Virus record (IMG/VR): IMGVR_UViG_3300029952_000124
Span: 1-24,484 of that record
Strand: one strand, 5' to 3'
Source: a virus
Length of the DNA: 24,484 nt
Below are positions 437 to 19,439 of the stretch, piece after piece. The notes below the pieces were generated by a model, which worked only from the letters and a program-made list of their open reading frames with translations, was not told the DNA's origin and did no database searches. Position numbers and translations under genes: made by a program. Within the stretch, counting starts at the first letter, position 1. The number at the start of each line of letters is the position of its first letter.

Positions 437-2374
437 ATGAGTACAATACCAGCATCGGCCATTGTCCAGGTCAACCCCAGTGTTTTATCGGCCGGCGGTT
501 CTGGCTTAGATTTATCCGGGCTATGTCTGGATAACGGCACTCGCACACCAATCGGAACAGTTCCTTCATTTCCTTCAGCACCCGCTGTCGGTGCATATTA
601 CGGATTAGCTTCAGTACACTACGCTAACGCTCTTATATATTTCGCGGGTTTTCAAGGTTCGAACATTAAGCCTGGCGCATTATTGTTTGCGCAATACAAC
701 CAAAACGCCGTACCCGCATATATCCGCGGCGGTGCAACAGCGGCTTTATCACTGACAGCGTTACAGGTTCTTAGCGGCACGTTAATCGTCACTGTAGAAG
801 GCGTACAGAAAACGTCGGGGGCGATCACTTTATCTGCGGCTACCAGCCCCGCAAACGCTGCGACGATCATTACCACAGCATTCGGCGCGTACGACGGTGT
901 TACCAGCGCCGCGACAACTATCGCTACAGGCACGACAACCAGCGTAACAGGCTCAATCACCGGCTATACCCTGACAGTGACTGCTGTCGGTTCAGGCGCT
1001 TTAGTTGTCGGCGGCGTACTGTCTGGCACAGGCGTTACGACAGGTACAGCGATTACGGCACAACTTACTGGCACGACGGGAGGTATTGGCACTTATACTG
1101 TCAGCCTTAATCAGACAACAACATCAACCACGATTACGCAATCATACGGGTTGATGACTGTTGCAGCGATGTCGTCAGGTACTCTGTATGTCGGATCAGT
1201 CATATCAGGAGGTACTACTGCAGCCGGTACAACCATTACAGCTCTGGGCACCGGTACAGGTGCAGCAGGTACATATATTACGTCAGGCGGCGCGCAAACA
1301 GTATCTGCGACCACAATCAGTTCAGGTCCGCTCACCTGTACTTATGATAGCGTTTCCGGTAACTTCGTTTTAACCGGCGGCGCCCCCGGTGCAGCAGGTA
1401 CGATTGGTTACTGTACCGGCACACTGGCTACTGCTTTGTCGATGACTTCGGCGACCGGGGCCGCATTGTCGCAAGGCGCGGTACCTGGAACACCTGCAGC
1501 CTTCATGGCGGGCATCGTCGCGCAGACAACTAACTGGGCAACTTTCTTTACCCTGTTCGATCCTGATAATGGTTACGGCAACGTGAATAAACAGGCGTTC
1601 GCTAACTGGGACGGCTTGCAAAATAGCGAATTCGCTTATGTTGCGTGGGATCTCGATATCACTCCGACGCAATCGAACGCAGCAACAAACAGTCTCGGCT
1701 ATATTCTTAAAAATAACTCAACTTCGGGAACTATTTGCGTTTACGACCCAAATAACACCGGACTGGCAGCTTTTACTTCAGGTTCTATTGCATCGATCGA
1801 TTTCACGCAGTTAAACGGACGTTCGACACTGGCGTTTAAATCGCAGTCCGGATTTACGTCAACTGTCTCGTCACAGACTGTATCTTCTAATCTGATCGCT
1901 AACGGATACAATTTTTACGGCTCTTACGCGACAGCCAATCAGGGTTTCCAGTTTTTTAATCCAGGCCAGATTTCAGGTCAGTTCCAGTGGGCGGATAGCT
2001 ACGTTAATCAGATATGGATGAATTCAGCGTTCCAGCTAGTGTTAATGACACTGCTGACCAGCGTGAAAGCTATTCCTTACAACTCGCAAGGTTACGCTTT
2101 AATTCGCGCAGCGTTAAGCACAGTGATTACGCAAGCGGGTAACTTCGGCGTATTTCAGCCAGGCGTTCAGTTATCTGCTTTGCAGATTGCCGAAGTCAAT
2201 ACGGCGGCAGGCACGCCGATCGATGCGATTTTGTTTTCACAAGGGTATTATTTGCAGATTTTGCCTGCCACTGCGCAGGTGCGGGGGGCCCGCGGTTCTC
2301 CGCCGATGACTTTTTGGTACATGGATGGCGGATCAGTACAAAGCATGAATTTAGCCTCAGTCGAAGCTCAATAA
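437..2374 (+). CDS. Contractile tail sheath protein (DUF3383 family) with inserted repeat domains
   Basis: This 645-residue protein begins at an ATG with GGAG ten bases upstream. The N-terminus ('[18 protein letters not shown]') and the C-terminal half ([22 protein letters not shown], and the terminal '[15 protein letters not shown]') resemble DUF3383 sheath subunits, which polymerise around the tube and contract to drive it through the envelope. Residues about 100-150 and 298-350 look like the usual surface domain of this family. Between them lie about 146 extra residues (about 152-297) carrying two copies of the Gly/Thr-rich beta domain found elsewhere in this window. The protein is therefore longer than the usual roughly 500 residues. 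The inserted domains should decorate the outside of the tail; that is inference. Confidence 0.85.
944..1138 (+). repeat. Recurrent beta domain, copy 1 (sheath residues ~170-234)
   Basis: Starts '[17 protein letters not shown]', then '[11 protein letters not shown]', a glycine/threonine turn and 'GTYTVSLNQ', closing with 'TTIT'. This is the same ordered set of motifs as the copies in the baseplate J and fiber genes. Confidence 0.8.
1148..1321 (+). repeat. Recurrent beta domain, copy 2 (sheath residues ~238-295)
   Basis: A more diverged and shorter copy lying directly after copy 1: '[20 protein letters not shown]', '[16 protein letters not shown]', ending 'SATTIS'. The first strand of the motif is shortened. 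Confidence 0.7.
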
Positions 2375-2389
2375 TAAAGGATATTCACC

Positions 2390-2818
2390 ATGAGCATTAC
2401 TTCAGCAAACAGTACCCTTTATCTGGGCGTAACAAGTTTGTTTAACACCCCGCAACAAATGATAGGCTTCGCACAAGATGACGCCTATGAGGTTGACGCG
2501 GTAGATCCTGTCGAAGCCCTGATCGGCGTTGACGGAATTATGTCGACTGGCTGGGTGCCGCAGATTAAAATTATGCACGTCACCCTGCAACCGGATAGTG
2601 TGTCGAATGTCTTTTTCGAGGCGTGGTACGCATCGCAGGAAGCGCAACGTGAAATTTATCAGGCATTCGGTACGATATATCAGCCTGGCATCTCACGGGC
2701 ATACGCGTTAACGAATGGAGTTCTGGCTAATTACACGCCTTTAGCTGCGGGTAAGAAAGTGCTGGCACCGCGCCGGTTTCAGATCAAATGGCAAACAATC
2801 TTAGGAGCACCTGCATAA
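2390..2818 (+). CDS. Tail tube-like structural protein
   Basis: A 142-residue protein with its ATG preceded by AAAGGA. It follows the sheath gene after 15 bases and its TAA overlaps the next ATG by one base. The position (sheath, then this, then chaperone, then tape measure) is where contractile phages keep the tube gene, and the size suits a tube subunit. Motifs seen are 'SANSTLYLGVTSLFNTPQQ', 'GFAQDDAYEVDAVDPVE', and a C-terminal 'KKVLAPRRFQIKWQTI' strand. I recognise this as a phage family often annotated only as a tail or hypothetical protein, so 'tube' is inferred mainly from order. Confidence 0.65.
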   Translation: MSITSANSTLYLGVTSLFNTPQQMIGFAQDDAYEVDAVDPVEALIGVDGIMSTGWVPQIKIMHVTLQPDSVSNVFFEAWYASQEAQREIYQAFGTIYQPGISRAYALTNGVLANYTPLAAGKKVLAPRRFQIKWQTILGAPA

Positions 2819-3225
2819 TGCGTAAAACCGCAACCATTACGATCGCGGCGGAAGGACGGGATAAAGGCAAAGTATTTCAGCTGAAAGAATTGCCTGCTTC
2901 ACAAGCTGAACGTTGGGCGATGAAAGTTTTTCTGGCTTTGGCTAAAAGTGGCGTCGATATACCGGAAGATGTCATGCAATCAGGTATGGCAGGGATCGCT
3001 GCCGTCGGGTTCAAAGCTTTAGCGGGTATGAATTACTATGATGCGGAACCGCTGATGGATGAGATGTTCCAGTGCGTGCAGGCCGTGCCAGACCCGGGTA
3101 AACCGGCGGTGCTTCGCAATCTGATTGAAGATGACATCGAAGAAGTGCAAACCCGGTTGTTGCTACGTAAAGAGATTCTTCTGTTGCACGTAAATTTTTT
3201 GCCAGCCGCCGGAAACACGCTGTAA
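2818..3225 (+). CDS. Tail assembly chaperone, short (0-frame) product
   Basis: Start chosen at the ATG at 2818, which overlaps the previous stop by one base (TAATG); an upstream in-frame start at 2788 would lie inside the tube gene. The 135-residue product is mostly helical and charged ('LKELPASQAERWAMKVFLAL', 'EPLMDEMFQCVQAV', 'EEVQTRLLLRKEILLLHVNF'). It corresponds to the gpG-type chaperone that binds the tape measure during tail assembly. Near its 3' end it carries slippery heptamers and a stem-loop, giving a longer fusion through the -1 frame. It is immediately followed by that extension and then by the tape measure gene, the standard arrangement. Confidence 0.8.
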   Translation: MRKTATITIAAEGRDKGKVFQLKELPASQAERWAMKVFLALAKSGVDIPEDVMQSGMAGIAAVGFKALAGMNYYDAEPLMDEMFQCVQAVPDPGKPAVLRNLIEDDIEEVQTRLLLRKEILLLHVNFLPAAGNTL

Positions 3226-3236
3226 GATTCGGCGGC
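3192..3236 (+). promoter_or_regulatory. Programmed -1 ribosomal frameshift signal
   Basis: In the 0 frame the codons read GTA AAT TTT TTG, giving two overlapping slippery heptamers: A AAT TTT at 3192-3198 and T TTT TTG at 3195-3201. Three bases later GCCGCCG (3205-3211) pairs perfectly with CGGCGGC (3230-3236) around an 18-base loop, a suitable stimulatory stem. A -1 slip leads into an open frame of 71 codons ending at 3416. Confidence 0.88.
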
Positions 3237-3416
3237 ATACCTGATCAGCGCCGTATTGATTATCTGAATGTCCCCCGTACGCTCGGGATGGTACTTTCGC
3301 ATAAAATGGCGACGCTGGAACAATTAGATACGATTTACAGTGTTGAAGATGTGTACGATATGATCGAAATAATCATGGTAGATAACTACAACACGAATCT
3401 TGACAGAGAAGAATAA
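3201..3416 (+). CDS. Tail assembly chaperone, -1 frame extension (gpGT-like)
   Basis: This open segment of 71 codons has no start codon at its beginning and is reached by a -1 slip at 3192-3201, giving a fusion of about 199 residues from the ATG at 2818. The extension reads through motifs such as 'RFGGIPDQRRIDYLNVPRTL', 'LSHKMATLEQLDTIYSVEDV', and ends 'NTNLDREE'. I recognise this as the second domain of phage tail assembly chaperones. Its TAA at 3414-3416 overlaps the ATG of the tape measure gene by one base. In lambda the corresponding GT product recruits tail tube subunits to the tape measure; a similar role is inferred here. Confidence 0.85.
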   Translation, partial: ASRRKHAVRFGGIPDQRRIDYLNVPRTLGMVLSHKMATLEQLDTIYSVEDVYDMIEIIMVDNYNTNLDREE

Positions 3417-5092
3417 TGCCGACAGTAATTGATTCTTTTGTTGTATCGTTAGGGCTTGACGCTAAAGGCTTCACGCAGGGGCAGAAAGACGCGGCCAAAG
3501 CGTTGACAGATATGGAACGTCAGTCCGTTAAAACGGGTCAGCAAATAGAAAAGGCAGGTAAAGCATCAGTAGCCGCGTTCAGCTCTCTGAAACGGGAATT
3601 GTTTGCAGTTATAGGGCTGCTTGTTGCGGGGGCAGGCGTTAAGTCGTTTATCGGCGGTATGCTGGATATGACGGCATCAGTAGAGCGAATGTCGACTAAT
3701 TTTGCGTTAAATAAGCGCAGTATTTTTGAGTGGCGCGTAGCAGCTGAACAGGCAGGGGGAACGGCTGAAGAAGCCACAGCCGCAATCTCTAAAGCGAATG
3801 ATGAGTTTGCGCGATTTCATAAATACCGTGAAGTTAGTCAGGGCGTTCTGGTCAATGGTGTCGATATTTCTGGTGCTTCAGACGGATTAGATTTACTGCT
3901 TAAAAAATCAGAAGCCATTGCGCGTGTAAGGAATAACGTACTAAATAAAGGCGGCTCGCAGGGGCAAGCTGAAGCAGCAGGCAATTTAGCGACATCCGAA
4001 CTGGGTATCGCGCTAAGTTTGTACCCGATTCTGAAAGATGGCCCGGAAGGAGCTAAAAAATTATTGCAGGCGAATAAAGCTTTAGTTGATCAGGAATTAA
4101 AACTAGCTGCGGATTCTGAAAGTTTACGTAAAGAATGGAACAAAGTAACTAATAGTTTATCGGCTGCTGGGCTTAGCGTGTTAAATCATTTTATGCCAGC
4201 GATAAAAAAATTCGCAGACTATTTGTTAACCCCGGAATTTCAGACTGATTTAGATAAATTAACGCAAGGCGCAGCTGATGTAGGCGACGCTTTAGTGTGG
4301 CTAGCTCGTAAATTAAAATGGGTTATAGGCGATAGTTCGCCGACAGGGGATACCCCCCGCGTTAAAGGTAAAAATGGATACACCTACAAAGACGGCGTAA
4401 TCGATAAAAACGATCCAAATAACTATGTTGGCGGCACCACAGCAACCGGGCACACGTTAAATGATGCGAATCCAGAGTATCAGCAAGCATTACGCGTTCA
4501 GGGATACGAAAACGCGACTAATTTAAATGAAAAAAAATTGCGCATCACTAATAAATTAAAAGCGATGGGCTATACGACGGATCAGGCGCGCGCCATCGCA
4601 GGAAATTTACAAGCTGAAAGTGGGCTAGATACCGGAGCTTACAATCCGCGGGGCGGAGGGCAAGGTGCGAGAGGGTTAGGTCAATGGCGCGGCGCGCGGC
4701 AAGATGCGTTCAAAAAAATGTTCGGGCATGGCGTTGAAGGTAGCACTGAAGATGAACAACTGAAATTTCTGAAATATGAATTGGATACGAACTTAAGGTA
4801 TAAAAACGCCTTGTCAGGATCGTCAGTAGGTGCAATGACTGAATCATTCGCCCGTATTTATGAAGCGCCGAGCGCTGCAGAGTTATCATCGTCTTTGAAA
4901 AAACGGCTAGGCTACGCGGGGGCGCTCGGGGCGAATGCAACAGCAGTGGGCAAGAGCGCCAGTAATTCGTCATCAACTACGGTGAATATCGATTCAGTTA
5001 ATATAAAAACAGCAGCAACCGATGCACCAGGTATTGCAGGGACGATTAAACCTGCGATTCAGGTGGCGATGGCGACGACTGGAGTGCAATAA
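3416..5092 (+). CDS. Tape measure protein with C-terminal tail lysozyme domain
   Basis: A 558-residue protein starting at an ATG that overlaps the chaperone stop. The N-terminus ('DSFVVSLGLDAKGFTQGQKD', then a charged helix) is typical of tape measure proteins. A hydrophobic segment lies at about residues 63-82. Residues about 365-500 form a phage tail lysozyme domain (Phage_lysozyme2-like): 'GYTTDQARAIAGNLQAESGL' with the likely catalytic Glu at residue 401, 'ARGLGQWRGARQDAF', and a late 'FARIYEAP' motif. The protein sets tail length and its lysozyme would open peptidoglycan locally during injection. At about 1.5 angstrom per residue it implies a short tail of roughly 80 nm; this is an estimate, not a measurement. 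Confidence 0.88.
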   Translation: MPTVIDSFVVSLGLDAKGFTQGQKDAAKALTDMERQSVKTGQQIEKAGKASVAAFSSLKRELFAVIGLLVAGAGVKSFIGGMLDMTASVERMSTNFALNKRSIFEWRVAAEQAGGTAEEATAAISKANDEFARFHKYREVSQGVLVNGVDISGASDGLDLLLKKSEAIARVRNNVLNKGGSQGQAEAAGNLATSELGIALSLYPILKDGPEGAKKLLQANKALVDQELKLAADSESLRKEWNKVTNSLSAAGLSVLNHFMPAIKKFADYLLTPEFQTDLDKLTQGAADVGDALVWLARKLKWVIGDSSPTGDTPRVKGKNGYTYKDGVIDKNDPNNYVGGTTATGHTLNDANPEYQQALRVQGYENATNLNEKKLRITNKLKAMGYTTDQARAIAGNLQAESGLDTGAYNPRGGGQGARGLGQWRGARQDAFKKMFGHGVEGSTEDEQLKFLKYELDTNLRYKNALSGSSVGAMTESFARIYEAPSAAELSSSLKKRLGYAGALGANATAVGKSASNSSSTTVNIDSVNIKTAATDAPGIAGTIKPAIQVAMATTGVQ

Positions 5093-5781: not shown

Positions 5782-5783
5782 CT

Positions 5784-7754: not shown

Positions 7755-8191
7755 TGAACACATTATTTTTGCTGCCGTCGACCTGGGATTTAGCGCAAGA
7801 TGCTTTCGGTAACATCGCAATGTCAACCGAACCTTACTCACTGGTGCAAGACGCGGCCAGTACCGTCAGGACATTCGCAGGCGAAGTTTATTATGATACG
7901 ACGCAAGGACTGCCTTATTTCACTCAGATTTTCGGTGTCACCCCTATACCCTATGAACTGATCCGCGCTAACGCTATTGCAGCAGCGAATACAACACCTG
8001 ATATCGCTTCGACACAACTGTTTTTTACCGGGCTTGTTAACCGCAGTTTATACGGTCAGCTTCAGGTGACGTCTGTAACCGGCGCAACAGCAGCTCTGGC
8101 TGTACCACTATCAGGCGGGCAAGGCGTACAGGGCGCGCAAACATTCACATTAGATGCATCCGTGTTAGGCGGCGGCGACATTTTAGGATGA
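7754..8191 (+). CDS. Baseplate wedge protein, gp25-like
   Basis: 145 residues; the ATG overlaps the spike stop (TTTAATG). The sequence 'TWDLAQDAFGNIAM', 'YSLVQDAASTVRTFAGEVYYDTTQGLPY' (seen across residues 28-55) and 'LIRANAIAAANTTPDIASTQ' is typical of the gp25/DUF2634-related wedge family, which forms the inner baseplate ring and seeds sheath contraction. It is followed at once by the fiber-like gene and then by baseplate J. Confidence 0.82.
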   Translation: MNTLFLLPSTWDLAQDAFGNIAMSTEPYSLVQDAASTVRTFAGEVYYDTTQGLPYFTQIFGVTPIPYELIRANAIAAANTTPDIASTQLFFTGLVNRSLYGQLQVTSVTGATAALAVPLSGGQGVQGAQTFTLDASVLGGGDILG

Positions 8192-8193
8192 CT

Positions 8194-9285
8194 ATGAAAA
8201 AAATTATCGTGTTTGTGCTGTTTCTGTCGGCGGGTGCACTGCTTTATTCGCAGACAACAGGATTTCCCTGGTCTGAAGGTCAGACAGTAACAGCGACATC
8301 CCTGAATAATGCTTTTACTGCACGCGTAACTTATACCTCTGGCCCACTCTTAAAATACGGTGTGATGCTGGGAAACGGTTACGGCGACAGCCAGACGCTT
8401 AATAACTACGGTCTGAGTAGCTACGTACTAACATCTAACGGTCCTGGTGTACCGCCTTACTGGGCGCCGGGCGGCGGCGGGTCATTTACTTACCCAGGTG
8501 CCGGGATACCTAATTCGTCCGGATCTGCATGGCTTCCTTCTTACGCTACAACCGGAACAGGTAACGTTGTTTTATCTAACGGCGGCACTTTAGTCGCCCC
8601 TGCGCTGGGTATGCCAGCGTCAGGCGATATAACGAATCTGACAGGTACGTGCGCTGCTTGTAATATTAGCGGAAACGCAGCAACAACTACATTGGCCGCT
8701 GAAGCGACCGCTACAGCGGGCGGGACCACGAATACTATTTCCTACCAGACAGCGCCAGGTGTGACGGCCTATATCACGGCGCCGGTATCATCATCAACAT
8801 TTTTAGAGTGGAACGGCACATCTTTTATTTGGGGCACTTCACCAGGAGGCTTCACTAACCCGATGACGACGGCGGGCGATCTGATTTACGGCGGCGCCAG
8901 CGGCACCCCAACCAGATTACCAACAGGGTCAGGCGTTCTTGTTGGCGGTACCACACCAAGCTACAGTTTAAATGTGCCCGGCTTAACGGCAGGCTACGCC
9001 ACCTTAGCGGCTACAGCGGTTAATGTGTACGGCGGATCAGTCAGCACAAACAGCGTAACACTGACCAGTGGGCGTGCAGGCACATTTACCTGCACATCGG
9101 GGGGATCGATCACGATCACAAACACGAATATATTATCAACGTCTAACGTTATCATCTCAACGAATACCCCAGGCGGTACTGTTTCATGGACGCCAAACAT
9201 TAAAACGATTACCAGCGCGACGTCTTTTGTTGTTATTTGCGCTACCTCAGACACCAGTATTTATAATTACGTCATTTTGAATTAA
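8194..9285 (+). CDS. Fiber-like protein with N-terminal signal peptide
   Basis: Two ATGs are available, 8188 and 8194; AGGA at 8185-8188 is correctly spaced only for 8194. The product (363 residues) starts MKKIIVFVLFLSAGALLYS, a Sec signal peptide, with likely cleavage just before 'QTTGFPW'. The mature part looks like phage fiber material: 'WSEGQTVTATSLNNAFTA', 'GTGNVVLSNGGTLVAPALG', 'NPMTTAGDLIYGGASGTPTR', and a C-terminal beta strand set ending 'NYVILN'. The place in the baseplate cluster, between gp25-like and baseplate J genes, suggests a tail component, but a signal peptide is odd for a cytoplasmically assembled virion. It may be a secreted or membrane-anchored protein. Confidence 0.7.
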   Translation: MKKIIVFVLFLSAGALLYSQTTGFPWSEGQTVTATSLNNAFTARVTYTSGPLLKYGVMLGNGYGDSQTLNNYGLSSYVLTSNGPGVPPYWAPGGGGSFTYPGAGIPNSSGSAWLPSYATTGTGNVVLSNGGTLVAPALGMPASGDITNLTGTCAACNISGNAATTTLAAEATATAGGTTNTISYQTAPGVTAYITAPVSSSTFLEWNGTSFIWGTSPGGFTNPMTTAGDLIYGGASGTPTRLPTGSGVLVGGTTPSYSLNVPGLTAGYATLAATAVNVYGGSVSTNSVTLTSGRAGTFTCTSGGSITITNTNILSTSNVIISTNTPGGTVSWTPNIKTITSATSFVVICATSDTSIYNYVILN

Positions 9286-9318
9286 ATGGTACCAGGCTAT
9301 TAATAATTAGGATTCTCA

Positions 9319-10731
9319 ATGTCGACAAACGTACCATTTCCAAGTATAGGCACGAACGGTTGGGTACCGCCAACTGAAGAAGCAATACTGACTGGCGTTC
9401 AGGCGGATTTAAACCAGGCTTTCGGCGGTAATCTTAATCCTGCACTGACATCGCCCCAAGGTCAGTTAGCGACATCGCTGACAGCGATTATTGGCGACGT
9501 GAATAGTCAGTTTTTGACGCTGATGAATAATGTCGACCCTGCGTTTTCTTCCGGGCGGATGCAAGACGCTATCGGGCGCATTTATTTTATGACCCGTATC
9601 GCTGCGCAGGCCACTGTCGTTACCTGCACCTGCATAGGCGCTGTCGGGGCAATTATACCTATTAACGCTACGGCGATCGATCAGGCAGGCAATATCTATC
9701 TGGCCACAGCAGGCGGAACAATACCAACAGGCGGCAGTATATCGCTGACGTTTGAATGCAGTACCGCCGGACCTATCGCCTGCCCTATCGGCTATTTAAG
9801 TTCTATTTACAAAACGGTACCTGGCTGGAACAGCATTTACAACCCGGCTGCAGGTGTAGTCGGGTACAACACGGAGACACCCCAGGCATTCGAATTGCGC
9901 CGCGAACAATCTGTCGCGATTAATGCGCAAGGTAGTCTGCCGGCGGTTGTGTCGGCCTTATTCGCCGTAGCTGGCGTGGAAGATGTTTACGTTATTCAGA
10001 ACCCGCTACCCATTGCGAGCGGCGCTGTTGTTACAGGCAGTATTTCAGGCACAACGTTCACTGTTACTGCAGTAGCATCCGGTACTGTTGCGGTCAATCA
10101 GATGCTGACAGGAAGCGGTATTACGCAAGGCACTTATATCACATCGCTGGGTACAGGCACAGGTAGTACGGGAACATACGCGCTGAATTTTTCACAGACT
10201 GTCGGCAGTGAATCCATCACCTGTGCAGTAGGCGGTGTTCAGTTGCTGCCCAACTCAATTTATGCGTCTGTATATGGCGGCGTTGCACAAGCAATCGGTA
10301 ACGCCTTGTGGGCTAACGTCAGTCCCGGGTGTAACTACAACGGAAATACGACCGTGACAGTGTATGACACCGCTTCAGGTTATAACCCGCCCTACCCGTC
10401 TTATCAGATTGCTTTTGAAACACCGGCGGCCACACCAATACTGTTTAGTATTTCTATGCAGTTAAATAGTAATACGCCTTCTAACGCTATCGCTTTAGTT
10501 CAGGCTGCGGTAATTCAGTCTTTTGCAGGGCAAGACGGCGGCACTAAGGCGCGTATTGGCAGTTCTCTTTATTCCAGCAGATACTACGCTAATATTGCCG
10601 CGCTCGGTTCGTGGGCGGTTATTTACTCAATAGAATTAGGCGTTACAGCACCGACGCTAAGTTCGGTGTTGATGGCAGCGAATCAGGTTCCGACTTTATC
10701 AGCAACGAATATCGCCGTAGTTTTCTCTTAA
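9319..10731 (+). CDS. Baseplate wedge protein J (gp47/gp6-like) with inserted beta domain
   Basis: 470 residues; TTAGGA precedes the ATG. '[20 protein letters not shown]', '[19 protein letters not shown]', '[20 protein letters not shown]', '[11 protein letters not shown]' and 'SIYASVYGG' mark it as a Baseplate_J family wedge, the ring component of contractile tails. Between 'YVIQNP' and '[17 protein letters not shown]', where homologues normally have only a short strand connection, there is one copy of the recurrent beta domain (residues about 239-302). The next gene starts one base after the stop. Confidence 0.87.
10033..10224 (+). repeat. Recurrent beta domain, copy 3 (baseplate J residues ~239-302)
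   Basis: '[20 protein letters not shown]', '[13 protein letters not shown]', '[20 protein letters not shown]', 'ESITC'. It interrupts the usual link between two conserved baseplate J strands. Confidence 0.82.
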
Positions 10732-10732
10732 T

Positions 10733-12229
10733 ATGCAAAATTTAGAACAAACAATTCTTGCTCAGTACGCCAATTCGCCAACACTAAATAGTGTGGTTCA
10801 GGCATGGAATTCTGAGTTAGACCCAACAACTAATATCAATAATTTTTACAATAACGTATGGAATATTGAAACGGCGACCGGCTACGGTCTGCAGGTGTGG
10901 GGGCGTATCGTTAATATCGGTAACACGGTGAGTTTGCCTGCGGGTATGCCATTTGGTTTTGAAGAAGCAACAACAGCCAGCGCGGCGGAATTCGGGCAGT
11001 CCAATTTCTATAACGGAACGCAAACAACCAGTAATTACGTGTTGTCAGATCCAGTGTTCAGGACGCTTATTCTGGCTAAAGCGCTCATGAATATCAGCAC
11101 ATCGACGTCATCTGCCTACAACCAGATTTTAATGGCGTTATTCCCCGGCAGGGGAAACGCTTACGTAACAAATTTAGGTAACATGCAGGCCAGGCTGACT
11201 TTCGAATTTACGCTGCAGCCTTACGAATTAGCGATTATTAAGCAGACAGGAGCGATCACACCACCGACCGGCGTTCTGTTTGATGTTATGCAGGTTCAGT
11301 TGCCTTTTGCTTTTGGTTTTGCTGAAGCCGATGGCGGGTCAGCTTTTCCTGCCGTCGTTATTAATTCTATTTACGCCGCGACGTGGCAGGGTAACCAATT
11401 ACAGTACACAACACCCCGGACTAACTATCTGGACAATGCAGCATTAAATGTGCTGACACAATGTACGGCCACCTATAATAATGCAACGTCACCAGACGGT
11501 ACAACTGATGCTACGTTAATCACACTAAGCGCAGCAGTTACCGCGCCAGTTTGCGGATGGACTTCAGCAGGCACACCTTTTTCGTCCACTAATTTTTCAG
11601 GGTTAGCAACTACTTTTTCTGTTTATGTTTTGGTTGGCACACTAACCTGCACGGTTGATCTGTTCATTAATGACGGCAGCGGAACGCTGCAGGCTAACAG
11701 TACGGTAAATATTGCCACAGGCGCGATTACGAATATAGCTGCCGGGGGTGTTGTAGTTACTCCTTTAGCGGGCGGTTGGTATTGCTTCGCCATAACGGCT
11801 ACGTTTGCCGGCGGCTCTGCAAACGGTTACGAATGCTATGTCACGCCAGACGCCAGTTCAGCTAACGATAACCAGACATTTTGGATTGCTAATTCACAGT
11901 TTGAATCGGGGGCAGGGCAGACCAGTTTCATACCGACATCAACCACGTCTGGCGCTACGGTCACAGATTATACGCCCGGCGTGGATAACAGCACAGTCAC
12001 TTTTAGTGTCGCACCTGCAGCCACAGTCGCCCTGACATGGAATGGTACAGCACAAAGTAACATCGTTAGCGGCGACAGCGCGACAGCACAAAACGCGCTG
12101 TTTGGAACCGGAAACGGTACTACAACAACATTCAACATGACGAATAATTTGCCAATTACGATATATTTAAGCGGGTTAGGCAGCGCTACAGGATTTAATA
12201 CCGGCACACTTTTTGAAGGGTACTCTTAA
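10733..12229 (+). CDS. Baseplate protein DUF2612 (gp48-like) fused to a carbohydrate-binding-like domain
   Basis: 498 residues beginning at an ATG one base after the J stop (CTCTTAATATG). No clear ribosome site is seen, so reinitiation is likely. Residues 1-200 resemble DUF2612: '[20 protein letters not shown]', '[20 protein letters not shown]', '[19 protein letters not shown]', '[19 protein letters not shown]'. Residues about 225-420 look like the lectin-like domain common in phage head and tail spikes: '[11 protein letters not shown]' at its start and '[20 protein letters not shown]' at its end. The C-terminus adds a second small beta region. The fusion suggests the baseplate itself carries a surface-binding head. 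Confidence 0.75.
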
Positions 12230-12230
12230 T

Positions 12231-13517
12231 ATGCAAGTAGCAAATGTTCCGGCAGGGTTCCCGATTCCCTTCGCTAATAACGCGGGAGCCGGATTTATAC
12301 GAACAATCCCGACAGCTTCTCAGATAGGCATCACAGCAGGGGCGGCATCGCTTACTGACGGGTTCCCCCCTCTGACATTTAACCCTACAGCCGCTGGCGG
12401 CGTACCTCCTTTCGGTCAGGATTTTAACGGCATACTGAAGGAAATAACTGCGGCGATTCAAGGTTTGCAGGCCGGGTATATATACGGTTTTAGCCCTACA
12501 TTTTGCGAAGCGATCGGAGGCTATCCAAACGGCGCAATTATCGCAAATGCTGCGCGTAATACGTTCTGGGTATCGACAGCGGATAACAATTTAACGAATC
12601 CAGACGCAGCTAACGCCACCTTTACAGGGTACATTACCGGCACAATTCTGACTGTTACGGCTATCAGTACAGGTACTGTCGCTATCGGACAACTTTTGTC
12701 TGGCACCGGCGTAACTTTAAATACGCAGATTGTTAGTTTTGGCACAGGATCTGGCGGTACAGGAACGTACAACGTACAGACGACGCAAACCAATAGCAGC
12801 ACGACGATTACGGCTGCTGGTGCATCGAACTGGCAGTATTTCATTCAGACACTAGGTAACTTAAGTGTTGAGGCTTTTTCGGCCGTTAGCGCCGCTATCA
12901 GCGGTAGTTTTTCCGCATCAGCATTAAACGCATCGGGTACGGCGTTAGGTATTACCAACGTATCAGGATCTGGTACGGCGTGGTACAAATCTTTTTTCGG
13001 CGTATCAGGATCGGCCATTTTTCTGTTGTCATCTTCAGTACAGGCATCCCAGGCTGCGGCAAATGCGGCGTCATACACTTCTTACCGGCCCTTCCAGTGG
13101 AATGCCAGTACAGGTGCAGTGACAATAGATGCCACGGGAGCGGGAGCTTATTTTGGCGGGGCGGCCTTCGCGGCGACAGCAGCATCAAATACGGCGACAA
13201 CACAGCTGGCAACAACGGCTTTTGCTAATCCTGGCAATTCCATCAGCGCAAACGGCTACGTAAAACTGCCTAGCGGGATTATTTTTCAGTGGACGCAAGG
13301 GGCTAATCAGGCAGTTGCAGGCAGCCAGGTTGTTAACTTCCCGATCACATTCCCCAACGCAGTGCTGAAAGTGTGCGTATCGAGCTTATATTCATCCGCT
13401 TCTCAGTACGGGACTTACGGATTCTATTCATCAGCAGTTGGCTCAGCAGCCGTGATACGGAGCAATTCAGATAACGGTAATGGTGTCACCCCGGTTATTT
13501 TCGCCATCGGGTATTAA
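12231..13517 (+). CDS. Tail fiber protein 1 (gp53-like C-terminal domain)
   Basis: The ATG at 12231 is one base after the previous stop and has GAAGGG upstream; an in-frame TTG at 12213 lies inside the preceding gene and is rejected. The 428-residue protein has the prophage-type fiber N-terminus ('[20 protein letters not shown]', '[14 protein letters not shown]', '[20 protein letters not shown]'), one recurrent beta domain (132-195), an alanine/serine-rich shaft, the '[15 protein letters not shown]' linker, and a gp53-like tip ('[17 protein letters not shown]', '[19 protein letters not shown]'). It probably contacts the receptor. It is paralogous to the next gene. Confidence 0.8.
12624..12815 (+). 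repeat. Recurrent beta domain, copy 4 (fiber 1 residues ~132-195)
   Basis: '[20 protein letters not shown]', '[19 protein letters not shown]', '[15 protein letters not shown]', 'TTITA'. Closest to copy 5 at the nucleotide level. Confidence 0.82.
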
Positions 13518-13532
13518 TTAAAAAGGTAACGC

Positions 13533-14477
13533 ATGCAAGCTTCTAACGCACCAACCCCTTTTCCGATACCTTTTGCGAATGCCGCCGGAGGTTCTTACAC
13601 AAGGCCCATACCGACTGCTTCGCAGATTAACGTAACACCAGGGGCGGCATCATTAACTGACGGTTTTCCCCCGCTCACTTTCGTATCGGTATCTAACGGC
13701 GGGGTCCCTCCTTTCGGTCAGGATTTTAACGGGCTGCTAAACGAAATAACGTCAGCTATACAGTGGCTGCAGGCGGGTTTCACCCCAAGCTATAACGCCG
13801 CGTTTTGCCAGTTTGTGGGCGGCTATGCATCAGGCGCCGTATTAGGTAACGCAGCCGGAACAACATTCTGGAAATCGACAGCCGATAATAACTTTTCTAA
13901 TCCTGATGCGGCAGCAGCCTCTGTTACCGGCACAATTACCGGTACAGTTTTAAATGTGACCGCTGTTGGTTCAGGTACGCTGGTTTTAGGTCACATTTTG
14001 TCAGGTACGGGTGTGACGACCGGCACACAGATTGTCAGTTTTGGTACAGGATCAGGCGGGACAGGGACGTATAACCTGCAAAACTCGATGACGGTCGGGA
14101 GCGAAACGATTACAGCGGCAGCAGCGGCCAACTGGGTTATTTATAACCAGCTAGGCGCAACGCAAGCGACGAACACCAGCAACACGACGCTGGCCACCAC
14201 GGCGTTTGCTAACCCCGGTGCGTCGCTGGGCACATCAGGCTACGCTAAGCTGCCTAGCGGACTGATTATACAGTGGGGAACCGTGTCAGCAACCACGGCA
14301 GGTGTCGCCGTGACTTTTGCGATTACCTTTCCAACCGGCGCTTACACCTGTACGCCGGCAGCGCAGAACGGCGCTACCGTCGCGGCCTTGTCATCTTCAG
14401 TACCGACAACAACGGGGGCCACGATTTATGCGGCTTCCGGAACCGTTGCCGCAACTTATATTACTATCGGCCATTAA
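13533..14477 (+). CDS. Tail fiber protein 2, tandem paralogue of fiber 1
   Basis: 314 residues with its ATG after AAAAGGTAAC. The N-terminus ('[20 protein letters not shown]', '[20 protein letters not shown]'), the position of the inserted beta domain (again residues 132-195) and the gp53-like tip ('[20 protein letters not shown]', '[13 protein letters not shown]') match fiber 1. It lacks about 100 residues of the shaft. Several nucleotide stretches in the first 250 bases are identical between the two, pointing to a tandem duplication followed by divergence of the tip. Two fibers with different tips could widen the host range; that is inference. Confidence 0.8.
13926..14117 (+). repeat. Recurrent beta domain, copy 5 (fiber 2 residues ~132-195)
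   Basis: '[20 protein letters not shown]', '[19 protein letters not shown]', '[20 protein letters not shown]'. Same position and near-identical core as copy 4. Confidence 0.82.
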
Positions 14478-14490
14478 TTAAAGGACTACC

Positions 14491-15084
14491 ATGAACGTGC
14501 TTTACTCCCCTTCGGCGCATGCCAACACAACGGTACCAAGCAAAGGTTTTTATTTCGCGACAGATGTCAATGCACCGGCGGATGCTTTTTTGGTATCTGA
14601 TGCTGACCACATGACTGCGGTTAATCTGCCGCACGGTTCATCGTACAGTTTCACCGCGCCCACTTCACCTTTTACCGAAGTGGAAGGGGAACAGGTTGCG
14701 GTTTACGCCGTGCTCACCACCACAGCACCAAGTGAAGACGTGCTGATTAAACAGGCGCAAGAAAACCAGACAGCACTTATCACAGCCGCTTATCTGGCTG
14801 CAATTAACGAGCCTGTAGAGTATATGGGTACAACGTTTAACGCAGATCAGACATCGCTGACTACATTGAATAACGCCGTCGCTGCTGCAATGGGCAATGC
14901 CCCGCCCGGGTTTGCCTGGTATGATACAAAAGACAATGCCGTACCGATGACTTTCTCACAACTGCAAGGGCTGGCAAGCGCTATATTTTTGCGCACACAG
15001 CCTTTATTCGTCCATAAGCAAACACAAAAAGCGGCCATATTCAGGGCATCGTCAATTGCTGCTGTACAAGCTATTAACTGGTGA
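14491..15084 (+). CDS. Tail fiber assembly-like protein (DUF4376 C-terminus)
   Basis: 197 residues, ATG after AAAGGA. The N-terminal part ('FYFATDVNAPADAFLVSDAD') is fiber-chaperone-like. The C-terminal half ('QTALITAAYLAAINEPVEYM', 'GTTFNADQTSLTTLNNAVAA', 'GFAWYDTKDNAVPMTFSQLQ', 'AAVQAINW') fits DUF4376, a domain found in phage genes just after fibers. Its likely role is to help fold or attach the fibers encoded upstream. Confidence 0.75.
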   Translation: MNVLYSPSAHANTTVPSKGFYFATDVNAPADAFLVSDADHMTAVNLPHGSSYSFTAPTSPFTEVEGEQVAVYAVLTTTAPSEDVLIKQAQENQTALITAAYLAAINEPVEYMGTTFNADQTSLTTLNNAVAAAMGNAPPGFAWYDTKDNAVPMTFSQLQGLASAIFLRTQPLFVHKQTQKAAIFRASSIAAVQAINW

Positions 15085-15131
15085 AGTAAAATACGGTCTT
15101 TAGCAGCATAAACTTTTATACGGAAAGCATC

Positions 15132-15344
15132 ATGGATAACACAGAACCACAAAGCGACCTGAAGGCTGACGCAGAAAAACTGCTTACTGACGTCGAGCAA
15201 ATAGTTGGCAATTTTTTTAAAGCTGACAGTGCAGACAGCGCTGCACCTGAAGCCGCTGGTACCCAACCCGAAGCGGCACCTGAAACAGCGCCCGAAGTGA
15301 CGCCTGATGTTGGCGGCAATTTACCAGAACCACCTAAAGGCTAA
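15132..15344 (+). CDS. Small acidic hypothetical protein
   Basis: 70 residues; a GGAAAG motif precedes the ATG. Residues 1-30 ('DLKADAEKLLTDVEQIVGNF') form a likely amphipathic helix. The remainder is a Pro/Glu/Ala-rich tail without order-promoting residues, ending 'GNLPEPPKG'. I do not recognise a family. It starts the run of lysis-region genes and is followed two bases after its stop by the next gene. Confidence 0.6.
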   Translation: MDNTEPQSDLKADAEKLLTDVEQIVGNFFKADSADSAAPEAAGTQPEAAPETAPEVTPDVGGNLPEPPKG

Positions 15345-15346
15345 TC

Positions 15347-15760
15347 GTGCGCGGGCTACAGTCGCGGATAACAGCCTTTTTTATTTTGCTTTGGGCTGAC
15401 TGCTTTTCGCATCACATTTTAAGCCTCATTCCAACGAATGAGGCTTATTTATTTGTATGTGTTAATTTCAATTTACTGGCGCTGCTGTTTTTAATTAAAA
15501 CGAAGCCGACTAAGTTAATGAAAGATATTTCTCTTTTGGTCCTGGCTCAGATGGGCATTCAAATTGTGGCCTGGTTTGTTTTAAAATGGCCCGCTTACCC
15601 TTATTTTTACCACGACGCTATCACCGGTATTGTCGCATTAACTTATCTAAGACTACTTTTAATAAGAAAAACAGATGGCGACTTTAAGCGATATCCTCGT
15701 TGGGTTGTATTTTCTCGCGATTATAATCTGGTCCATTTATTTAGTGAAAGAATTTCATAA
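15347..15760 (+). CDS. Small multi-pass membrane protein
   Basis: 137 residues with a GTG start at 15347, preceded by AAAGG at a good distance. Four hydrophobic segments are visible at about residues 8-27, 33-50, 62-79 and 87-106, the last ending 'YLRLLLIRKTDGD'. It has no signature I can name; it may belong to the holin or accessory lysis group because an endolysin and other small membrane proteins follow. Two odd features lie inside it: a terminator-like hairpin near codon 25-34 and an overlapping ORF from 15675. Its TAA overlaps the next ATG by one base. Confidence 0.65.
   Translation: MRGLQSRITAFFILLWADCFSHHILSLIPTNEAYLFVCVNFNLLALLFLIKTKPTKLMKDISLLVLAQMGIQIVAWFVLKWPAYPYFYHDAITGIVALTYLRLLLIRKTDGDFKRYPRWVVFSRDYNLVHLFSERIS
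15421..15446 (+). terminator. Terminator-like hairpin inside a coding region
   Basis: AAGCCTCATT (15421-15430) pairs perfectly with AATGAGGCTT (15437-15446) around a six-base loop CCAACG, extendable by one T-A pair, and is followed by ATTTATTTG. The shape resembles a factor-independent terminator or attenuator with a weak U tract. It lies about 75 bases into the preceding membrane-protein ORF, so function is uncertain. Confidence 0.4.
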
Positions 15761-15866
15761 TGAACATACTTACCCAGATAGTCACCGAGAAAGTGAAAGA
15801 GATTCTGGAAACCCCGACGGCGGCGGCGACGACAGCCATATCGACGGGACTGATGGGGTTCCTTGA
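15675..15866 (+). CDS. Overlapping small single-span membrane protein (possible)
   Basis: A 63-residue frame with ATG that overlaps the end of the 15347 gene by 86 bases and the start of the 15760 gene by 107 bases. It begins 'MATLSDILVGLYFLAIIIWS', one clear membrane span, and ends in a hydrophilic Asp/Gly/His-rich tail. No strong ribosome site is visible. The hydrophobic N-terminus and position before a holin and endolysin would suit a regulator of lysis timing, but hydrophobicity could also be a by-product of the frame it shares with its neighbours. Uncertain. Confidence 0.38.
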   Translation: MATLSDILVGLYFLAIIIWSIYLVKEFHNEHTYPDSHRESERDSGNPDGGGDDSHIDGTDGVP

Positions 15867-16050
15867 AATTGCATACCACGTCAGCCAGGATGCGCTGGGC
15901 TGGATATCTCTGTTTCTGGGTTGTCTTATCGGGTGTGTCGTATTAAAAATAAAAATAAGCGAGTTGAAAATAACCCGGTTGCGGGAGAAACGCGAAGGGT
16001 TATTAGAAGACAGAACCCATACAGATAAGGATGACTATGACGCCGGCTGA
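15760..16050 (+). CDS. Putative holin
   Basis: 96 residues; ATG overlaps the previous stop (ATAATG). A helix with charged residues (1-20) leads to hydrophobic segments at about 27-42 and 47-66 ('GWISLFLGCLIGCVVL'), then a charged C-terminus 'ITRLREKREGLLEDRTHTDK'. Two spans and a basic/charged tail next to an endolysin gene are typical of class II holins, which permeabilise the inner membrane. An inner-membrane spanin is a less likely alternative, because it would need an N-terminal anchor and long periplasmic coil. The endolysin start overlaps its last 14 bases. Confidence 0.58.
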   Translation: MNILTQIVTEKVKEILETPTAAATTAISTGLMGFLEIAYHVSQDALGWISLFLGCLIGCVVLKIKISELKITRLREKREGLLEDRTHTDKDDYDAG

Positions 16051-16528
16051 TTTTATTACTACTATAGCCCCGGTTGCGCAATCTGGTTTTGCAGCATCAG
16101 GCATCTGGCCTTCCTTTGTCATCGTTCAGGCTATTTTTGAATCGAGCTGGGGCGGCAGTGAACTAACCCAGCAAGCTAACAATCTGTTTGGCATCAAGGC
16201 GGATTCAGGCTGGACCGGCGCGACGTTTTCGATGCCTACTGGCGAAGATGTTTTGGTTGACCCAACTAATCCGGCAAGCGGATATAAAAAAATTATTGTG
16301 CAGGCGAACTGGCGTAGCTATCCTGACTGGCTTTCATCAATTCAGGACCACGCTAATTTTCTGCGTACTAATCAACGTTACGCAGCCGCGTTTCAGACAA
16401 CAAATGTGAATGATTTTATTCAGGCGATTGCGGCAGCCGGTTATTCGACAAACCCTAATTACGCAACGATGCTGACGGACGAAATAAGCGCGCGTAATTT
16501 AACTCAGTACGATACGGTGACATCATGA
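16037..16528 (+). CDS. Endolysin: N-acetylglucosaminidase
   Basis: ATGs occur at 16031 and 16037; AGGA at 16028-16031 is properly spaced only for 16037, giving 163 residues. The sequence is a single glucosaminidase domain of the FlgJ/LytG type: 'FITTIAPVAQSGFAASGIWP', then 'QAIFESSWGGSELTQQANNL' with the likely catalytic Glu at residue 35, 'FGIKADSGWTGATFSMPTGE', and 'WRSYPDWLSSIQDHANFL'. It cleaves the glycan strands of peptidoglycan. No signal peptide is present, so release should depend on a holin; candidate holins flank it on both sides. Confidence 0.88.
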   Translation: MTPADFITTIAPVAQSGFAASGIWPSFVIVQAIFESSWGGSELTQQANNLFGIKADSGWTGATFSMPTGEDVLVDPTNPASGYKKIIVQANWRSYPDWLSSIQDHANFLRTNQRYAAAFQTTNVNDFIQAIAAAGYSTNPNYATMLTDEISARNLTQYDTVTS

Positions 16529-16740
16529 ATCCTAACTTAGCGGCAGTATTAAAATTTTTAAGTTATGCCGGCGTAATTGGCGGTCTGGCGTTCATTCAAT
16601 ATTTAAAAGTTGTTTATCCGACGTACGACGGATCATTAGTCGTTATGGGTTTAACCGCGGCGGGAACCGGCCTCGGTATTTTTAATACGTTAGGTTCATC
16701 TAAAAGCCCCGCTTCACCACTTAATGAGGATACAAAATGA
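16525..16740 (+). CDS. Small two-span membrane protein, holin-like
   Basis: 71 residues; the ATG overlaps the endolysin TGA (ATGA). Hydrophobic spans lie at about 8-25 and 38-55, separated by 'KVVYPTYDGS', with a short polar C-terminus. It could be the holin or an antiholin; the gene at 15760 is the other candidate. Its own TGA overlaps the next ATG, so the three genes are translationally linked. Confidence 0.6.
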   Translation: MNPNLAAVLKFLSYAGVIGGLAFIQYLKVVYPTYDGSLVVMGLTAAGTGLGIFNTLGSSKSPASPLNEDTK

Positions 16741-17054
16741 GCAAGTTATTCAGTTTTTTGGCCGTTATGTTGTGCCTTGGTTTAACCGCCTGCGCAACAA
16801 CTCAGTCGGCGCAAGTTGGTTTCGTTCAGGCATGTACGGCTTACAAAACCAGTTTCGCCACCATTTTACAGTTACGGGACGCAGGCAAGCTGACAGCAGT
16901 TCAGATCAGCGCTATCAACACGCTGGACAGCCAGGTGACACCACTATGTACGGGAAAAGCACTACCGGCGAGTCCGGACGCAGCGACGGCGCAGATTACC
17001 GCTGCTGTAACGACACTGGCAGCAACAATTGCAGTTCAACAGGGAGCAAAATAA
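16737..17054 (+). CDS. Phage lipoprotein, possible outer-membrane spanin-like
   Basis: 105 residues; ATG overlaps the previous TGA, with GAGGA upstream. The N-terminus 'MSKLFSFLAVMLCLGLTAC' is a lipoprotein signal with lipobox LTAC (Cys19). The mature part is Ala/Thr/Gln rich and contains 'LRDAGKLTAVQISAINTLDS', 'QVTPLCTGKALPASPDAATA', suggesting helices with one further pair of cysteines (Cys31, Cys74). Position after endolysin and holin genes would suit an o-spanin, but it is longer than usual and I see no overlapping i-spanin. It stays a lipoprotein of unknown role. Confidence 0.7.
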   Translation: MSKLFSFLAVMLCLGLTACATTQSAQVGFVQACTAYKTSFATILQLRDAGKLTAVQISAINTLDSQVTPLCTGKALPASPDAATAQITAAVTTLAATIAVQQGAK

Positions 17055-17353
17055 TGGACTCAACTAACGAACCAGGTACAGCGTCAACTATTGAAACGAC
17101 GCTGGTATCGACACTAACTGCTTTAGCGCCAGCTTTAGTCGCGGCAAACCCTGCGGTATCCAGCGCTGCGGCGCTGGCACCGCTGGCTTTGCAGTTTTTG
17201 CAGGCCGCGCAGCAAATTCAGGCTGCAGGGCTGATGACGCAGGCTGAACTGGCGTCAACATTCGCCACCATTGGCCAGGGTGTGCTGGCTACGCATACAG
17301 CGTGGGTAGCACTCAACACACCGGCAACTGAAGTACAGCATCAGCCTGCGTGA
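17054..17353 (+). CDS. Small helical hypothetical protein
   Basis: The ATG at 17054 overlaps the lipoprotein TAA by one base. The frame is open further upstream to 16724, but that part is a shadow of the lipoprotein gene, with no sensible composition. The 99-residue product is alanine, leucine and threonine rich ('TLTALAPALVAANPAVSSAA', 'LQFLQAAQQIQAAGLMTQAE') and probably all helical. I do not recognise it. Gene order links it to the lipase one base downstream of its stop. Confidence 0.6.
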   Translation: MDSTNEPGTASTIETTLVSTLTALAPALVAANPAVSSAAALAPLALQFLQAAQQIQAAGLMTQAELASTFATIGQGVLATHTAWVALNTPATEVQHQPA

Positions 17354-17354
17354 T

Positions 17355-18014
17355 ATGAGCGATTTAACTAATGCGGCGAAATTGGCTTGTACGTATATCT
17401 ACTTTCCGATTAATAAAGCCGCATTCAGTAAGCTGTATCAGGCTGGTGAAACCATCTGTGGAACCGCTATCGTTGATGGCGTGTTTCACATTTGCTTTCA
17501 GGGCACGGCCAATCTGCACGGCTGGATTGCCGACTTCGATGTGCTACCTTACCGGCACCCGACGTTTGGCAATGTTCACAGTGGCTTCTACGAGAATCTG
17601 CCCGCCATTTTAAAGTTCCTGATACCTGATATTCCTGCGGGTTTTAAAATCGTTGTCAGCGGCCACTCTAAAGGCGCAGGTGAAGGCGTACTGTGCGCAG
17701 CGGAACTGATACTGGCAGGTTTTAAAGAAGTGTCCTGCATTCTGTTCGCCTGTCCTAACGCGGGTGAAAAACAATTTTGCAGCTGGGTGCAAAAAAACAT
17801 ACCGGGTATATCGTTTCGTAACGTGTTTAAAAAACTAAAGTGGTTCGGCGATTTGGTACCAGTGGTACCTGAATACCCCTACGGGCCGCCTTATCCGCAC
17901 ACTTTTATAACCCGGTACCCGCCGGGTTTTTTACGTTTTCTTCCTGCCCACTGGCATTCATCTAAACTGTATTATCAGGGCACGCTAAAATTTAGCGCCC
18001 ATCCGGAGAAGTAA
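17355..18014 (+). CDS. Class 3 lipase / esterase
   Basis: 219 residues, starting just after the previous stop. It has the class 3 lipase signature: the oxyanion strand 'FHICFQGTANLHGWIADF' (residues 44-61), 'VHSGFYEN' (74-81), the nucleophile elbow 'VSGHSKGAGEG' with Ser105, a likely catalytic Asp166 in 'FGDLVPVVP', and His201 in 'HWHSSKLYYQG'. It would hydrolyse acylglycerols or other esters. No signal peptide is present, so it may act at lysis, on membrane lipids, or be carried in the virion. It lies between the lysis genes and a secreted GH18 protein. A lipase is uncommon in phage late regions. Confidence 0.83.
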   Translation: MSDLTNAAKLACTYIYFPINKAAFSKLYQAGETICGTAIVDGVFHICFQGTANLHGWIADFDVLPYRHPTFGNVHSGFYENLPAILKFLIPDIPAGFKIVVSGHSKGAGEGVLCAAELILAGFKEVSCILFACPNAGEKQFCSWVQKNIPGISFRNVFKKLKWFGDLVPVVPEYPYGPPYPHTFITRYPPGFLRFLPAHWHSSKLYYQGTLKFSAHPEK

Positions 18015-19439
18015 ATGAAAAAATTAGTTTCTTTTGTTTTATTTGCGCTGATGTTTTCCGTTGCCAGTGCGCAGGTCACTTTTGCCCCTTTCATGTTGTA
18101 TAGTGACGACTACACCTATACGTCCAATACGGCGGCAAATGCGTCAGGGGGCCTTTATCCTTACGACCCTCACTACGCGATCTACCCTAATTCAATTATC
18201 ACATCGCTGACTACGCAAACTGTGTCCACGCAGTTTGCGCAAAGTGTCTGGTCCTCAATGCCACCGGATCTTAAAACGCTAACCTGGGGATTCACTGTTA
18301 ACAACCCGGCATCAACAACCTGTCCGATGCCCATCTTCGAGCCTAATATTCCGGCTGCTGTTGCTGCTGCTGTCAACATTCCCTCATTCATTGCAAACGG
18401 TAAAACCTATTTTGTCTCCGCCGGGGGTGCAGGGCACACCTTTAAATGTAATTCAGGCACCAGCCCTAATAATACGGCGTTCATGACTTACGTGAATACG
18501 TTCGTGAGTCCTAATTTGTTAGGTTTTGACTTTGACATTGAAGGGCAGACTATTGTCAACAGTTCTTATACGGGCACTATTTGTAATTCTGGCTGCACAG
18601 GTGTGGGTAACATCCTGACAGTGACCGCCGACACTACGCCGGTATCACTGGGGCAGGAAATATATAATAACGGTCTGGCAGTGGGTGTGTACTATATCAT
18701 CGCGATGAGCGGTTCCCAGCTAAACGGGGTGACTGCCTGCGGATCCTGCACTGGGACAGGCGGAACAGGGACGTATTTAGTTGGTAAGGTGAATAATGTA
18801 GCGGCCAGTTTAAATATAACATCGGGGGTATTTGGCACGTCAACGCCGAACTATTCCCAAAACGACGTCTTTAATCTTATCGAAGAGATGAACTACGCGC
18901 AGACGACTTACCCAGGTCTGCAATGGAGTTTTCAGGTTGGCGGCAACGCCTGTTCAGTCGGATGCTCTACCGGCTTCTCTCAGTATGCTGTCTGGATTCA
19001 GGAAGCTATGGCGGTCTATCCGGTTACTAATTACGTATTTGTGCTGCAGGCTGGCGATTTTTTACAGCAATCTAATCAGTGCGTTATTTCGGCCGGCGTG
19101 TGCGAGATGGGGTTATCGGTTATTCAGGAGATGCAGAACGCGCATAACTACAACGGAATCCCTTACGCTAATCTTGGTGTAAATCCGTATATAGGCGGCA
19201 ATGACTGGGTGGGAGGTACGATCGACTTTCTTACGATTGCCGATGTGGCTACAATAACGACCTGGTTCACTGCAAATGGCTTAAACCGGATCACCCCCTG
19301 GGCCTATTCGCGCGATTTTGATTGTGCCACCCAGGCGTCACCTAACACGTCAAGTGACACCTGTAATAATTACGGTAGTGTCGGTACGGCTGGCACACTG
19401 GGATTTACCAAAGCGTTTTTATCCGGGCTGGGGCAGTGA
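18015..19439 (+). CDS. Secreted GH18 (chitinase-like) glycoside hydrolase with inserted beta domain
   Basis: 474 residues; the ATG directly follows the lipase stop, with CGGAGAAG upstream. Residues 1-19 are a Sec signal peptide (MKKLVSFVLF, then 'SVASA' before the cut). The GH18 active-site strand is 'LLGFDFDIEGQ' (residues 168-178, acid Glu176). Near the end 'GVNPYIGGND' and 'LNRITPWAYSRDFDC' resemble the last conserved strands of bacterial GH18 chitinases. Residues about 185-271 hold a Cys-containing variant of the recurrent beta domain, right after the active-site strand, and lengthen the enzyme. It would cleave chitin or another beta-1,4 amino sugar polymer outside the cell. Substrate is not shown. 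Confidence 0.78.
   Translation: MKKLVSFVLFALMFSVASAQVTFAPFMLYSDDYTYTSNTAANASGGLYPYDPHYAIYPNSIITSLTTQTVSTQFAQSVWSSMPPDLKTLTWGFTVNNPASTTCPMPIFEPNIPAAVAAAVNIPSFIANGKTYFVSAGGAGHTFKCNSGTSPNNTAFMTYVNTFVSPNLLGFDFDIEGQTIVNSSYTGTICNSGCTGVGNILTVTADTTPVSLGQEIYNNGLAVGVYYIIAMSGSQLNGVTACGSCTGTGGTGTYLVGKVNNVAASLNITSGVFGTSTPNYSQNDVFNLIEEMNYAQTTYPGLQWSFQVGGNACSVGCSTGFSQYAVWIQEAMAVYPVTNYVFVLQAGDFLQQSNQCVISAGVCEMGLSVIQEMQNAHNYNGIPYANLGVNPYIGGNDWVGGTIDFLTIADVATITTWFTANGLNRITPWAYSRDFDCATQASPNTSSDTCNNYGSVGTAGTLGFTKAFLSGLGQ
18567..18827 (+). repeat. Recurrent beta domain, copy 6 (GH18 residues ~185-271), diverged
   Basis: 'YTGTICNSGCTGVGNILTVT', 'SLGQEIYNNGLAVGVYYI', 'GSCTGTGGTGTYLVGKVNNV', 'SLNITSG'. It keeps the motif order of the other copies but gains two cysteine pairs (Cys190/194 and Cys242/245). 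Confidence 0.65.

Follow-up and report, generated by a model that had tools for sequence, protein, structure and literature searches.

One beta domain of about 65 residues occurs six times in five proteins of the window (the whole stretch of DNA that was analysed, a 24,484-base virus record from a contractile-tailed phage, spanning its tail and lysis half): twice in the tail sheath protein, once each in baseplate J and in two tail fibres, and once, in a divergent form, in a GH18-like enzyme. The copies share a common ancestry and constitute one domain family. The chances are, in our view, about even that this is a self-folding insert that was acquired repeatedly in exposed loops of virion proteins, is displayed there and confers weak, avidity-driven binding.

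Detection of the domain copies

Copies were detected by a leave-one-out (jackknife) procedure, in which a profile built from five copies was searched against the six-frame translation of the window for the omitted copy. Five copies, all on the + strand, were recovered: sheath a (932-1144; 46.8 bits), sheath b in tandem with it (1127-1327; 27.2 bits, E 4.9e-8), baseplate J (10018-10230; 61.0 bits, with further support from alignment and structure prediction), fibre 1 (12609-12821; 70.8 bits) and fibre 2 (13911-14123; 76.3 bits). When the window proteins were shuffled, none of 20 sets gave a match to the same profiles. A common profile, on which the first-pass annotation had made its proposal of one domain recurring in these proteins depend, thus exists, and the proposal is upheld for five copies at 27.2-76.3 bits and for the sixth as a divergent but significant member.

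The sixth copy (18558-18827, + strand) lies in the GH18-like enzyme (18015..19439, + strand), which has an apparent N-terminal signal peptide, is matched by phmmer to Exochitinase 1 (9buf_A, E 2.2e-4), gave no match in a Pfam search, and carries the motif DFDIE at residues 172-176 (read from the sequence; context GFDFDIEG, to be compared with the DxxDxDxE-type motif of GH18 chitinases). The copy was missed by the five-copy profile and found by a profile of 54 diverse copies (E=0.002, profile positions 5-61 of 63), and it outscored all of 5000 composition-preserving shuffles with both profiles. It contains two extra loops with one Cys pair in each, and is inserted about five residues past the glutamate of the GH18 catalytic motif. 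Since the 54-copy profile finds it and every shuffle was outscored, it can be regarded from its sequence as a real but divergent member of the family; the single-sequence AlphaFold2 model (pLDDT 33) is uninformative as to its fold. A search of IMG/VR with the whole enzyme returned no relatives besides the identical phage.

G, T, S and V are abundant in the domain segments, whose motif is repetitive, as would be the case if low-complexity Gly/Thr segments had come to resemble each other by convergence rather than homology. This reading is hardly credible: shuffled sequences never match, the segments correspond to a single confident fold with structure-level matches at TM>0.9, and an ordered motif with near-invariant G/Y positions is preserved across the 54 diverse copies. 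At the DNA level the window copies are only 38-65% identical, and identical residues share their codon in 21-52% of cases, so the similar nucleotide identity between copies that had been anticipated was not found.

Host proteins and insertion sites

The sheath gene (437..2374, + strand; Pfam DUF3383 3.7e-108, phrog_205 tail sheath 6e-71) encodes a protein with phmmer matches to the sheath chains 9b42_S, 8fvg_A and 8env_A. Its two tandem copies lie in one insert of about 148 residues (about residues 150-297; 884..1327, + strand), which occupies a single loop at a position equivalent to residue ~148 of 492 in PA-1, with both flanks conserved, and which is missing from the aligned empty homologues of Pantoea PA-1, Pseudomonas Amjad_SA, Klebsiella RCIP0114 and a Helicobacter pametensis prophage. 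All related sheaths keep two tandem copies. The baseplate J gene (9319..10731, + strand; phrog_6, with baseplate J gp44 (8env_J) and 7kh1 gp16 as phmmer matches) carries its insert at PA-1 residue ~237 of 410, again with conserved sequence on either flank of the alignment. As sheath and baseplate J homologues without the domain align straight across the insert, the domain is a loop insertion in these proteins, and the suggestion that it had been added between conserved segments of its hosts is confirmed. Both fibre genes (fibre 1, 12213..13517; fibre 2, 13533..14477; + strand) encode a phrog_12796 N-terminus and Gp53-like_C.

In the baseplate J family, the site used by the window phage is common to two relatives (IMG/VR loci L011 and L022), and other sites are ~343 and ~384 (L112), ~384 (L107), ~138 and ~274 (L083), and a position near the N-terminus and ~146 in L036, for which the alignment is less certain. 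At least five different insertion sites are thus used in this family, and they represent independent insertions. Neck proteins of relatives also carry the domain: a tail-terminator-type protein at ~70/181 (L092, L112 and L039) and a gp28-type collar protein at ~40/127 (L092 and L112), the window phage's own versions of both being empty. In the part of this phage that lies upstream of the window (L111:5069-6238, - strand), a 389-aa capsid cement-type protein (XM1 gp53 / phrog_2122) contains three tandem copies inserted at ~132 of 162, a site common to L084, L086, L090 and L112. The head of the window phage would accordingly be decorated too, as predicted from these three copies.

Several window proteins recur at 100% identity in a 57,168-base IMG/VR contig, a longer copy of the phage, in which Pfam matches were obtained for the XM1 gp53 minor capsid protein, a tail terminator and, below threshold, E217 gp28. 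The best solved relatives of the window phage are 8env/9b42 for the sheath and gp44 for baseplate J. By these similarities the phage is placed with the E217/Pam3/XM1-like myophages.

Other genes of the window were noted as follows. A short protein at the tape-measure position (3416-5092, +) contains a tail lysozyme domain (PF18013, E 4e-21), and a fibre-like protein between the baseplate genes (8188-9285, +) has a signal-peptide-like N-terminus and a weak K1-lyase match at its C-terminus. Two overlapping reading frames (16724-17353 and 16737-17054, +), the inner one encoding a small lipoprotein, possibly form a spanin-type pair; a lipase-like protein with a GHSKG motif (17355-18014, +) adjoins the lysis genes. 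On the opposite strand are a protein with a long YAxSA-type repeat run of ~90 residues (19997-20725, -) and a lipoprotein-like protein whose GDSTMAG start resembles an SGNH hydrolase (20924-21622, -).

Distribution and family status

Among the IMG/VR matches listed, at least 607 copies were found in 445 proteins of ~76 host-protein families at 320 loci (overlapping loci of one contig being counted more than once). Host families of the head and neck comprise capsid, lambda D, cement, head closure, adaptor, terminator and collar proteins; those of the tail comprise tube, two sheath families, wedge, baseplate, S74 fibres, the Mtd N-terminus and tailspike lyases; and enzymatic or lectin hosts are represented by pectate lyase, SASA esterase and LamG proteins. 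Hosts to which a function can be assigned by sequence are predominantly virion parts. In bacterial chromosomes the domain is rare: among 298 further genomes from the phylum of the Sulfuritalea MAG, a single one carries it, and the domain is therefore considered mainly viral.

The domain is covered by no Pfam or NCBIfam family and by no PDB sequence; PDB sequence searches with the 6-copy profile, the 54-copy profile and a single copy returned nothing usable. In PHROGs it occurs only inside larger proteins: phrog_21413 and phrog_38233, which are unnamed or fibre PHROGs, are long proteins, and most copies match a single stretch in each (about 396-470 and 550-625), but these are whole-protein families in which the domain is neither separated nor named. 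A tblastn search of the bare domain against cultured phages was empty, probably through low-complexity masking, and says nothing on absence. Strings of the domain motif had no match in the literature searched, which left most subscription papers outside its reach. The kind of element is already known, being a promiscuous accessory virion domain, and it is the family itself that was apparently unclassified before.

Predicted fold

When the baseplate J copy was modelled by AlphaFold2 from an alignment of all six copies, the model was confident (pLDDT 95.5, pTM 0.82), with strands at 3-21, 29-31, 40-44 and 52-70, that is, two outer strands of 19 residues and two short ones. The segments are accordingly predicted to be self-folding, as had been proposed, rather than integral pieces of different folds. 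The compact beta sandwich that had also been expected was recovered in part only: the single beta fold is confident, but a sandwich is not evident from two long and two short strands with no high-ranking Ig match. Long first and last strands that reach both ends of the model would suit loop insertion.

A fold search of BFVD returned parts of HK97 major capsid, P22 gp10-like, side tail fibre and pectate lyase proteins at TM 0.84-0.96, and the same fold inside many unnamed phage proteins. Two further BFVD entries from Indivirus ILV1, A0A1V0SCQ2 and A0A1V0SDM6 (56% and 32% identity), are collagen-repeat proteins with the same predicted fold; the presence of the fold in this giant virus of eukaryotes could reflect either true sharing or a binning error. 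In the PDB the sole good match was 8ECI chain 1 (8eci_1; 124 residues, from a capsid entry of Arthrobacter phage Bridgette), with probability 1.00, TM 0.72 of the query, 27% identity and E 0.016. This chain is the best solved match, but it is separate rather than a loop insert, and it is only presumed to be a cement protein.

Ig-like domains were absent among the high-ranking PDB matches, antibody and MHC chains appearing only at TM 0.20-0.23, and 54 diverse copies searched against Pfam matched no Ig family even at E 0.1 and nothing convincing. By sequence and by predicted structure, then, the domain is not Ig-like. Kinship with E1_FCCH (PF16190) was considered on account of one Pfam match and weak Uba1 fold matches and was rejected. 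E1_FCCH is likewise a small beta domain and is present in some of the proteins carrying the domain, but none of three iterated hits overlapped the copies, the hits checked in sequence fall outside them, and hhalign gave a probability of 0.1, with no profile similarity.

Relationships among copies within and between phages

The first-pass annotation had suggested a domain that moves between the genes of one phage. Several unrelated genes of one phage do carry it, both in the window and in the 57-kb relative, as expected if it were currently jumping within a genome. Mean identity was 0.593 for the same site in different phages, 0.472 for different proteins of one phage and 0.496 between phages; belonging to one phage thus did not make copies in different proteins more similar to each other (permutation p=0.85). 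For only 1 of 117 copies did the closest one lie in another protein of the same phage, and no pair from unrelated proteins reached 85% DNA identity among the at least 607 copies listed, the best pair having 80.6%. On grounds of identity, codons and DNA near-identity, current jumping is very improbable, and the earlier claim is not supported as a description of an ongoing process; near-identical DNA, as expected of a recently mobile or intragenic transposing unit, was not observed. Codon sharing was higher within one phage (0.45 vs 0.30), which fits common codon usage. Given neither raised identity within phages nor near-identity of DNA, movement is old or rare and followed by inheritance in place; by sequence comparison the insertions are old, partly independent and vertically retained at their sites. 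Broad shuffling of protein fragments in phages is established (PMC10684548).

Proposed role and alternatives

The following mechanism is proposed. Tailed phages would repeatedly have acquired the ~65-residue domain in exposed loops of their virion proteins, each insertion being subsequently inherited in place, so that the particle surface would display hundreds to over a thousand copies. These copies may bind surface polymers of the host or matrix, probably glycans, weakly and by avidity, and such binding would keep the phage close to cells ahead of specific receptor binding. Next to the active site of the secreted GH18-like enzyme, the domain would play the part of a carbohydrate-binding module. 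In the related E217 virion the sheath consists of 204 subunits, and 180 copies of trimeric gp24 decorate the head (PMC10329688); if each sheath subunit carried two domain copies and each cement subunit three, a particle would bear ~900 or more domains. Surface display is itself deduced from homology to E217-type virions. Ig-like domains of phage Douge, displayed on its capsid and tail tube at 919 per virion, bound glycans of the mycobacterial surface (PMC13033339), and by analogy with phage Ig-like domains the most likely role would be adhesion to surfaces at low affinity through avidity. A point against adhesion is that the conserved core, rich in glycine and threonine, offers no obvious binding site.

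The domain could instead be a structural cement, with copies of neighbouring subunits touching each other and stiffening the head, sheath or baseplate against internal pressure or shear, and with no binding to the host. The closest fold in the PDB belongs to a phage capsid entry, and this capsid origin fits stabilisation of the modelled domain equally; three tandem copies occur in the XM1 gp53 / cement-type capsid protein and two in every related sheath, with further copies in HDPD, Phage_cement and Phage_capsid hosts, and stabilisation of the tail is one possible role of extra sheath domains (PMC9230969). We nevertheless consider this unlikely, as a lattice role makes no sense in fibres, tailspike lyases or a secreted enzyme, empty homologues assemble without the domain, and the set of domain-bearing neck proteins differs among relatives. 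Polymer binding is favoured over cementing because the domain is present in fibres, in lyases and, right after the catalytic motif, in the secreted GH18-like enzyme. Less probable still is a nearly neutral spacer, tolerant of insertion, whose robust fold survives in loops without selected function: its tolerance by many loops and hosts and its drift to about 50% identity would be accounted for, but not its maintenance in place across divergent phages (same-site copies being more alike, 0.593 vs 0.496), the retention of tandem copies in all sheath relatives, or its non-random accumulation in virion proteins.

Phage Ig-like domains, the precedent for the adhesion reading, are likewise small accessory beta domains found in many unrelated virion proteins, in many copies per particle, and missing from close homologues. 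The accessory presence in unrelated virion proteins is shared, with ~76 host families among the at least 607 copies. Ig-like domains differ in being seven-strand sandwiches, whereas the present domain has two long strands and two short ones over ~65 residues, and no ongoing exchange is seen here; moreover, the domain matches no Ig family in Pfam, and no Ig fold ranked high among its structural matches. The likeness that had been drawn to them therefore applies to distribution and not to sequence (no match at E 0.1) or fold. Type 2 and 3 tail sheath proteins also have extra domains, mostly Ig-like and sheath-specific, for which a role in adhesion or stability was proposed (PMC9230969). These are similarly beta-rich additions to the conserved sheath core, away from the tube, but the present domain is also found in head, neck, baseplate, fibre and enzyme proteins.

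Significance

Most domain-bearing proteins hit the same two PHROGs, which confuses annotations of environmental phages, and naming the domain would remedy this. It is plausible, at somewhat less than even probability, that this unnamed non-Ig family is a general display module of the whole virion in environmental tailed phages, recruited independently into proteins from capsid to enzyme, present in the order of a thousand copies per particle, and forming a second adhesion system as broad as that of the Ig-like domains. If it is an adhesion module, the inserts would point to loops of sheath, cement and baseplate proteins where a folded insert is naturally accepted, and several unrelated folds would have converged on decoration of the whole particle.
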